This document shows, in pieces, positions 31,890-33,968 of a DNA stretch of 33,968 nt. How positions within the stretch are numbered: the stretch's first letter is position 1; each line of letters opens with the position of its first letter. This DNA is from Acidiferrobacteraceae bacterium (GTDB lineage: Bacteria > Pseudomonadota > Gammaproteobacteria > Acidiferrobacterales > SZUA-150). Location: contig QIGL01000066.1 in the NCBI GenBank assembly GCA_003228915.1, positions 1-33,968 of the forward strand. Direction: 5' to 3'. The position numbers and the translations under genes were made by a program. A model generated the notes under the pieces. The model did not search any database. It was not told the DNA's origin and worked only from the letters and a program-made list of their open reading frames with translations.

Positions 31890-32363
31890 ATGCCTGGAAC
31901 TAAAACAGCGGTGCTGGTGCGGCCTGCCAACATCCATGATGTCATATACATTTATGACCTGGTGGATAGTTACGCCCATATGGGCAATTTACTGCCACGG
32001 CCAATGAGCGAACTATATCGCCACTTGCGTGATTTTTTTGTCGTAGTCGAGAACAATAAAGTCGTTGGCTGTGGCGCATTGGAGATATTTACAGAAACAT
32101 TAGGTGAAGTCAGAAGCCTGGTTGTAGTAGCAAACAAAAAAGGACAGGGTATTGGTAAAAAACTGGTTCAGCATATTATCGAAGAAGCACGTATCATTGG
32201 TCTAAAGCAAATCATGGCGCTGACTTATGTACCCGATTTTTTTCATACACTTGGCTTTAAAACCGTTAAAAAAGATACCCTGCCTGAAAAAGTATGGGGA
32301 ATTTGCGTCAAGTGCTACAAATTTAATAATTGCGACGAAATAGCGGTCGTGATTGATATATAA
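31890..32363 (+). CDS. Short ArgA-like GNAT acetyltransferase (probable N-acetylglutamate synthase)
   Basis: A 157-residue single-domain GNAT protein. The acetyl-CoA loop is KKGQGIGKKL (residues 83-92), preceded by the EVRSLVVV strand. The N-terminus VRPANIHDVIYIYDLV, the NLLPRP motif, VVGCGALEIF, the IMALTYVPDFFHTLGF segment and the C-terminal CVKCYKFNNCDEIAVV resemble the short-form N-acetylglutamate synthases (ArgA-like, lacking the amino-acid kinase domain) annotated in deltaproteobacteria and mycobacteria. If so, it makes N-acetylglutamate for arginine synthesis. Three cysteines near the C-terminus are typical of this group. It follows recN by eight bases without a Shine-Dalgarno, so may be coupled to it. 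Substrate is an inference from resemblance. Confidence 0.75.
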   Translation: MPGTKTAVLVRPANIHDVIYIYDLVDSYAHMGNLLPRPMSELYRHLRDFFVVVENNKVVGCGALEIFTETLGEVRSLVVVANKKGQGIGKKLVQHIIEEARIIGLKQIMALTYVPDFFHTLGFKTVKKDTLPEKVWGICVKCYKFNNCDEIAVVIDI

Positions 32364-32367
32364 GAAT

Positions 32368-32504
32368 TAAGGAAGCTCTGATCAATTGTCATCTCGACCG
32401 CAGTGGAGAGATCTCATGCCACGGAACTTCAGTAGCATCAGGAAGTGACAAGATTCCTCCGCTTCGGTCGGAATGATAAACATATATTGATCAGAGCTTC
32501 CTTA
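32368..32504. mobile_element. MITE-like element with 19-bp perfect terminal inverted repeats
   Basis: The 137-base element starts with TAAGGAAGCTCTGATCAAT (32368-32386) and ends with its exact reverse complement (32486-32504). The outermost TA on each side could be a target-site duplication, as made by IS630/Tc1-mariner-type transposases. Inside, GTCATCTCGACCGCAGTGGA and the facing TCCTCCGCTTCGGTCGGAAT form a second, imperfect inverted repeat. It has no reading frame for a transposase, so it would be non-autonomous. It lies five bases after the ArgA-like gene and could fold into a long hairpin at the 3' end of its message. Confidence 0.8.
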
Positions 32505-32552
32505 GTAGATAAAATATTAAACACCTGTAATTATTGCTACGATTATCAGAAT

Positions 32553-32984
32553 TTATTCTTCAGAGCATTTACCATTTTTCTTCATACCAACACAGACGCC
32601 ATAAAAATGCATGGTGTGCTCCTCGATGACAAACCCTTTTTCTTTGGCAATATCGCGCTGCCGTTGCTCAATCTGTTCATCGTAAAATTCAAACACCTTG
32701 CTGCACTTTACACACAGCATATGGTCATGATGGTGGCCATGATTCATTTCGTAAACTGACCGGCCACCTTCAAAATTATGCCGGATCAACAAGCCTGCTT
32801 CCTCAAATTGCGTTAACACCCTGTAAACAGTCGCAAGCCCAACGTCCTCCCCGGCCTCTACCAGGTTTTTAAAGACATCATCTGCACCGAGATGGCCGCC
32901 AGCCATTTCCAGGATTGATAATATTTTCAAGCGCGGCAAGGTTGCCTTGAGGCCTGCTTTTTTAAGATCATTCTTGTCAGTCAT
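32553..32984 (-). CDS. fur: Ferric uptake regulator Fur
   Basis: Fur is the Fe(II)-dependent repressor of iron-uptake genes. The 143-residue protein has the N-terminal winged helix (about 1-82, with the recognition segment ATVYRVLTQFEEAGLL). A metal-binding dimerisation domain follows, with the His-rich NHGHHHDHMLC (81-91), the Cys91-x2-Cys94 pair and a second Cys131...Cys140 pair. The pattern is Fur rather than Zur or PerR, and the neighbouring divergent bamE supports this. An AGGAT ribosome binding site lies six bases before the ATG. Confidence 0.95.
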   Translation of the reverse strand: MTDKNDLKKAGLKATLPRLKILSILEMAGGHLGADDVFKNLVEAGEDVGLATVYRVLTQFEEAGLLIRHNFEGGRSVYEMNHGHHHDHMLCVKCSKVFEFYDEQIEQRQRDIAKEKGFVIEEHTMHFYGVCVGMKKNGKCSEE

Positions 32985-33601: not shown

Positions 33602-33626
33602 TCAAAAGTGAATGCGCTTGTATAAT

Positions 33627-33864
33627 TAAGAGAGCTCTGATCAATATATGTTTGTCATTCCGACATATACTTGTCATTCCGACCGAAGCGGAGGAATCTT
33701 GTCACTTCCTGATACTACTGAAGTTCCGTGGGTTAAGATCTCTCCACTGGGGTCGAGATGACAGAGGAATCTTGCAACTTCCCGATATGTTTGTCATTCC
33801 GACCGAAGCGGAGGAATCTTGTCACTTCCTGATACTACTGAAGTTCCGTGGGTTGAGATCTCTC
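33627..33864. mobile_element. Tandemly duplicated, inverted relative of the MITE-like element
   Basis: The block begins with TAAGAGAGCTCTGATCAAT (two differences from the terminal repeat of the element at 32368-32504) and reads through in the opposite orientation: GTCATTCCGACCGAAGCGGA, then GATCTCTCC and GTCGAGATGAC. A 74-base segment at 33671-33744 recurs at 33791-33864 with one difference, a period of 120 bases. The motif TTGTCATTCCGAC is additionally doubled at 33652 and 33671. No terminal inverted repeat is found at the right end. There is no gene here. Confidence 0.75.
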
Positions 33865-33968
33865 GGCAACTGCGCTATGCGCCGGGCATGGATGCCCAAG
33901 TGCCACGTAGTACAAGGAGGTGCGAGAGTGGCCGTTGCTCTAGCTCCTCCATCTGACCGCCAGGGATG
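33865..33968. repeat. Unclassified non-coding repeat-like DNA at the window edge
   Basis: The stretch 33602-33968 has no gene. After the second MITE-like unit breaks off at 33864, unrelated DNA begins. It contains GGAGGTGCGAGAG facing CTCTAGCTCCTCC as an imperfect hairpin, and the similar motifs CATGGATG and CAGGGATG. It looks like another interspersed palindromic repeat, cut by the window end, but I cannot identify it. Confidence 0.4.

Follow-up and report, generated by a model that had tools for sequence, protein, structure and literature searches.

The element described here lies at positions 32371–32501 of the window, by which we mean the whole 33,968-nt stretch of DNA that was analysed. 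Upstream of it runs a gene for a GNAT N-acetyltransferase (31890–32363, plus strand; NF005840, 188 bits; PF00583), and the convergent gene downstream encodes Fur (32553–32984, minus strand; NF006999, 181 bits; PF01475). Between the two, an inverted repeat begins 5 bases past the stop codon of the acetyltransferase gene (31890–32363), the distance given in a preliminary description of this sequence. Its arms (32368–32386 and 32486–32504) are 19 nt each, 100% complementary and 99 nt apart, which agrees with the perfect 19-bp ends reported there. The extent of 137 bp proposed at the same time was too wide: the 19-bp repeat is real, but comparison with other full-length copies places the element proper at 131 bp with 16-bp terminal inverted repeats. 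The conserved unit of the aligned full-length copies starts with GGAAG and finishes with CTTCC, and the outer TTA and TAA letters of the 19-bp arms are part of the flanking TTAA (32367–32370) and TTAG (32502–32505). By a 4-bp rule taken from the flank pairs of other genomes, these flanks would be the left and right copies of a YTAR target duplication, the right one being identical to the left at three of four letters.

The left terminal repeat, GGAAGCTCTGATCAAT (32371–32386, plus strand), and the right one (32486–32501, minus strand) were delimited by the alignment of copies, and a complete IS described below has the same ends. The core between them is free of genes and consists of an inverted pair of palindromes with TGTC tags, the right arm having TATC in the window copy where the nine-copy consensus has TGTC. 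The left arm (32387–32415, plus strand), delimited from the sequence and the copies, is a CGTC-like palindrome with a TGTC tag and an ATCTC...GAGAT stem; longer copies contain this stretch as a tandem repeat. In the predicted fold, a loop (32416–32449) joins it to the right arm (32450–32478, minus strand; sequence and fold), a second CGTC-like palindrome in the opposite orientation with an ATTCC...GGAAT stem. An AT-rich spacer (32479–32485) follows, part of the 19-bp unit that longer copies repeat in tandem on their right side. The RNA fold of 32364–32510 has a predicted energy of −68.1 kcal/mol (z −8.7), a value reached by 0 of 200 shuffles. The Rfam search of the window returned no family except one tRNA.

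Copies in the source genome

BLAST of the element against its own 2.66-Mb assembly returned 67 matches at E ≤ 0.001, and in the best full-length ones (93–95% identical) similarity ends at the element's ends. The 12-base end motif with at most one mismatch matched 90 times in this genome, and the reversed motif 8 times. Full-length copies occupy 44 rows of 131–464 bp, one row being a compound of two. Counts vary with the filter, from 46 rows in the alignment (including one false pairing inside the GNAT gene and the one compound) to 42 copies with at least 400 nt of flank for placement, 44 rows for repeat units and 45 copies for polarity. The earlier proposal of a MITE from a large family whose ends are intact is thereby borne out, as the element is short and non-coding and has conserved ends throughout its many copies. 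The proposal that it is young is made doubtful by the mean difference of 9.9% among the nine 131-bp copies; the window copy itself departs from their consensus at 5 of 131 bases.

A second copy stands within the window (33626–33968, minus strand), longer than the first, opposite to it in orientation and cut by the contig end. It comprises TTAA (33626–33629), a terminal repeat (33630–33645), a core (33665–33763), a second core (33785–33864) and an inserted module that starts at about 33866, the contig (C19) ending at base 33968. Several contigs of the source assembly begin or finish within copies of the element, and these repeats therefore probably break the assembly. The phages and plasmids searched for the element yielded no match.

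Terminal repeats, transposase and target duplication

Of 369 genomes sampled evenly across the class, 38 contain the exact end GGAARCTCTGATYAAT, the source genome being one of them, with 46 matches there and 409 summed over the other 37; the reversed pattern had 0 matches. Scanning named genome contigs gave at least 103 stretches with the end motif. One of them, from Gammaproteobacteria bacterium clean1713 (locus L199), holds the complete IS that the preliminary description had proposed to look for: it is 1174 bp long (496–1669) and bears the ends GGAARCTCTGATYAAT. Its transposase gene (639–1613) is intact and encodes 324 aa matching NF033581 (IS5 family) at 371 bits (cut-off 140), with the domains PF05598 and PF01609. 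The element thus has terminal repeats in common with an IS5-family IS. Locus L154 holds a decayed second IS of this kind, degenerate in sequence. The ends of ISs of the same order with related transposases have diverged slightly from those of the element (GGCAC...); three of the four that are readable are flanked by CTAA/CTAA, CTAG/CTAG and TTAG/TTAG, and the fourth (L223) by TTAA/TTAG.

Transposases of the L199 type are present in 19 of 60 relatives, and none was found in the source genome or in G001–G005. PF01609 (IS4/IS5) and PF13358 (IS630) were without a match in the source genome, whose assembly is fragmented and 96% complete. With neither an IS5- nor an IS630-type transposase found there, the copies look orphaned, although repeats are what fragmented assemblies lose, and because no IS5-type transposase was found in the assembly, the family is probably no longer moving in this genome.

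The flanks distinguish between two kinds of insertion. A 2-bp TA duplication implies that the Y and R letters vary independently between the two sides, and a 4-bp YTAR duplication implies that they agree. Among the 95 pairs from outside the source genome, YTAR flanks both ends in 61, and in 53 of these 61 the two 4-mers are identical. The two sides match significantly at the variable Y (p = 8e-6) and R (p = 2e-6) positions, in a sample part of which is biased because its search pattern demanded TAA beside at least one end. For the family outside the source genome, the flanks therefore show the 4-bp YTAR duplication characteristic of an IS5-type MITE. In the source genome itself, most aligned copies are preceded by YTAA and followed by TTAR, and the duplication signal is weak (YTAR on both sides in 19 of 40 pairs, 13 of the 19 identical; p = 0.035 at Y and 0.27 at R). 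The copies there are about 10% diverged, which blurs it. By themselves these copies do not settle the choice between TA and YTAR, and the flanks of the window copy differ (TTAA/TTAG).

An IS630/Tc1-type MITE duplicating TA, the origin favoured in the preliminary description, would account for the TA on both sides of most copies. It would also directly explain the flanks that fit a 2-bp TA better, namely CTAA/TTAG at L006, at L021 and around the L199 IS, and TTAA/TTAG at L001 and L008. We nevertheless consider this origin very unlikely: in other genomes the agreement between the left and right 4-mers reaches past TA at both variable positions, so the duplication is not of TA only, the IS found with the element's ends encodes an IS5-family transposase, and PF13358 is unmatched in the source genome, where no IS630-type transposase with these ends came to light.

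Our preferred reading, to which we assign a probability of about 0.87, is that of a non-autonomous IS5-type MITE, the ends of which would be used in trans by an IS5-family transposase for insertion at YTAR. This IS5-type reading is well supported. A transposase of the NF033581 type would recognise the 16-bp ends in trans, mobilisation being assigned by class, and insertion at YTAR would leave the 4-bp duplication.

CGTC-like palindromes inside and outside the frame

The arms had been likened to GTCATTCC-type palindromes of many genomes, and this likeness is upheld by the genomes in which the same frame holds such palindromes. In G358 and G165, canonical CGTC palindromes stand in head-to-head pairs within the frame, several copies having YTAR on both sides. 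In 13 of the 369 sampled genomes, GTCAT is found no more than 25 nt from an end (43 matches in the source genome and 59 summed over the other 12), and the distance is at most 30 nt in 6 of 29 loci, one each from 29 other genomes, drawn by the end motif alone. Among all 1024 five-letter words in this 29-locus sample, only the overlapping TCATT (8) ranks above GTCAT, the mean being 0.76. Like CGTC REPs, whose tags are CGTC or TGTC/CCTC, the element has its TGTC tags outside and a head-to-head dimer. In place of an uninterrupted 8–9 bp stem and a CCA tail, the window arms have interrupted stems (−8.0 and −6.9 kcal/mol versus a canonical −13.6) and the tails CTC and CTT, and we therefore name them CGTC-like rather than members. 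One locus of G358 (L285) contains a 387-bp frame with several CGTC-type palindromes in series and CTCA on each side.

Interiors within the same ends vary, including a 160-bp type in Thiotrichales bin10046, one of 110 bp in a Thiogranum MAG, a 104-bp type in Ca. Sacchlamyda and others. Very large families occur in G218 (177 exact matches to the end), G202 (53) and G071 (40), and GTCAT-type interiors are few or absent in them. A minimal element of fifty bases in G099 (L252, 1501–1550) consists of two ends around GTCATTGCAATGAC, forms a perfect palindrome and has CTAT on each side. In Gammaproteobacteria S140_26 (L183, 3426–3571), the element's ends surround a different palindrome, GTTCGCCCTGAGCTTGTCGAAGGG, which we take to be another common intergenic repeat.

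The CGTC-tagged REPs form a superfamily that includes the neisserial dRS3, and the accessible parts of the survey by Di Nocera et al. (2013, PMC3733652) describe them without a dedicated transposase and mostly without linked repeats, raising other movers as a question. The same parts report palindromic frames around the CGTC-1 dimers of H. neapolitanus and interpret them as targets. If read in this way, a REP-type palindrome dimer would have spread by itself, and the common ends would be a preferred target palindrome that it entered; the dozens of CGTC-type palindromes found outside the frame would also fit. We regard such self-spreading as most improbable, given that the same ends hold unrelated interiors (the bin10046 160-bp and Ca. 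Sacchlamyda 104-bp types) as well as the transposase gene of L199, and that the YTAR duplications lie outside the ends, so that the moved unit includes the ends.

The idea that all CGTC dimers are framed by IS5-type ends was rejected, as such a frame was seen at none of 60 loci across eight genomes (0 of 12 in the source genome). In nine end-bearing genomes, an IS5-type end lay near 6 of 30 sampled loci, representing 4 distinct elements with one loose one-sided match among them. Most such palindromes stand outside the frame, which is therefore one route for some of them and no general answer. Several of the canonical CGTC palindromes outside IS5-type frames in the source genome (L328–L339) have a 5' flank like CCACTACTGTCCCACAACTC, and this shared flank is perhaps another repeat family.

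Placement, remodelling and comparison with known repeats

Full-length copies differ in their internal make-up. Two or more left units are present in 11 of the 44 full-length rows (one of them the compound), with a maximum of 8, and two or more right units in 24 of 44, with a maximum of 6. Fourteen of the 44 contain an inserted module, identifiable by either CGACTCCATGG or a second motif, and a similar module lies inside frame palindromes in G233 and G225 (L242 and L287). The sister genome G001 contains the element at two sites. One copy there and the copy on contig C18 of the source genome have a common insertion site: the flanks align through the element and the outer ends agree, the core aligns much better when flipped (145.5 versus 82.5 unflipped), and the G001 copy is 19 bp longer. 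This flipped orthologous core shows that MITEs with long hairpins are restructured once they have inserted. Polarity is the usual one in 42 of 45 source-genome copies, and none is clearly flipped. The empty site that the preliminary description had proposed to seek was found in G001, where the element is absent from the window's orthologous site, with a spacer too diverged for a base-by-base view of the duplication.

All 42 source-genome copies with sufficient flank lie outside ORFs, 27 in tandem, 12 in convergent and 2 in divergent gaps and 1 at an edge, according to a rough ORF call; for comparison, 25 of the window's 32 adjacent ORF pairs are tandem, against 3 convergent and 4 divergent ones. 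The near absence from divergent gaps and the 0 of 42 in ORFs would suit a domesticated structural RNA or bidirectional terminator that is under selection and a transposon no more. The strong hairpin, the window copy's position between convergent genes 5 bases past a stop codon, and the one insertion conserved in two species would suit it as well. Such domestication seems unlikely to us, since the accessible text of PMC3733652 reports a similar placement bias for REPs generally, orthologous copies differ in the orientation and length of their core, copies differ by 10%, and the window copy is missing from the sister genome. No intrinsic-terminator-like site was called within the element by a caller that allows loops of 3–8 only. 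The element may act as a 3' hairpin, as the preliminary description suggested, on the transcript of the GNAT gene or of fur.

Returning to the IS5-type MITE, the inverted pair of CGTC-like palindromes would fold as one long hairpin, and growth and flipping of the core may proceed by slippage or template switching at inverted and direct repeats. Copies would persist as 3'-flanking hairpins and may shape transcript ends. A broader scenario, which we offer tentatively and at somewhat less than even odds, is that IS5-type ends repeatedly captured CGTC dimers in unrelated bacteria, giving some of them a transposase in trans, after which the core evolves in place by arm growth, by insertion of a palindromic module that distant genomes have in common, and by inversion.

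Many bacteria carry CGTC-type palindromes as intergenic repeats, and their mover was left open by the 2013 survey, as far as its accessible parts extend (PMC3733652). Frames of IS5-type ends with matching YTAR around CGTC dimers in several genomes make one answer about the mover directly testable, and the flipped orthologous core bears on the interconversion of REP dimers, MITEs and mosaic repeats. The combination of frame and palindrome and the remodelling in place are the parts worth following. In the accessible portion of the literature, no description of such an IS5-type-end frame around a CGTC-type core was met, and the motif letters were unmatched.

Compared with CGTC REPs as described in the accessible parts of PMC3733652, the element is alike in its two head-to-head palindromes, its TGTC tags on the outside and its intergenic position mainly in tandem and convergent gaps, and differs in its interrupted stems, a tail other than CCA and transposon ends at its borders. 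QMITE2 of Coxiella burnetii (PMC5896051) is likewise a MITE that carries a REP and lies mainly in 3' regions; unlike the element, it has a GTAG-type REP and direct repeats of 7–11 nt, and IS5-type ends are unmentioned in the accessible text. With the IS5 family NF033581 (transpos_IS5_4), the element shares the YTAR duplication and its ends, which match those of the L199 IS exactly or almost exactly, whereas it is without a transposase and its interior is unrelated to that IS. The BOX elements of Streptococcus pneumoniae and foldback transposons are modular or inverted-repeat structures with variable internal direct repeats, and the element resembles them in outline.
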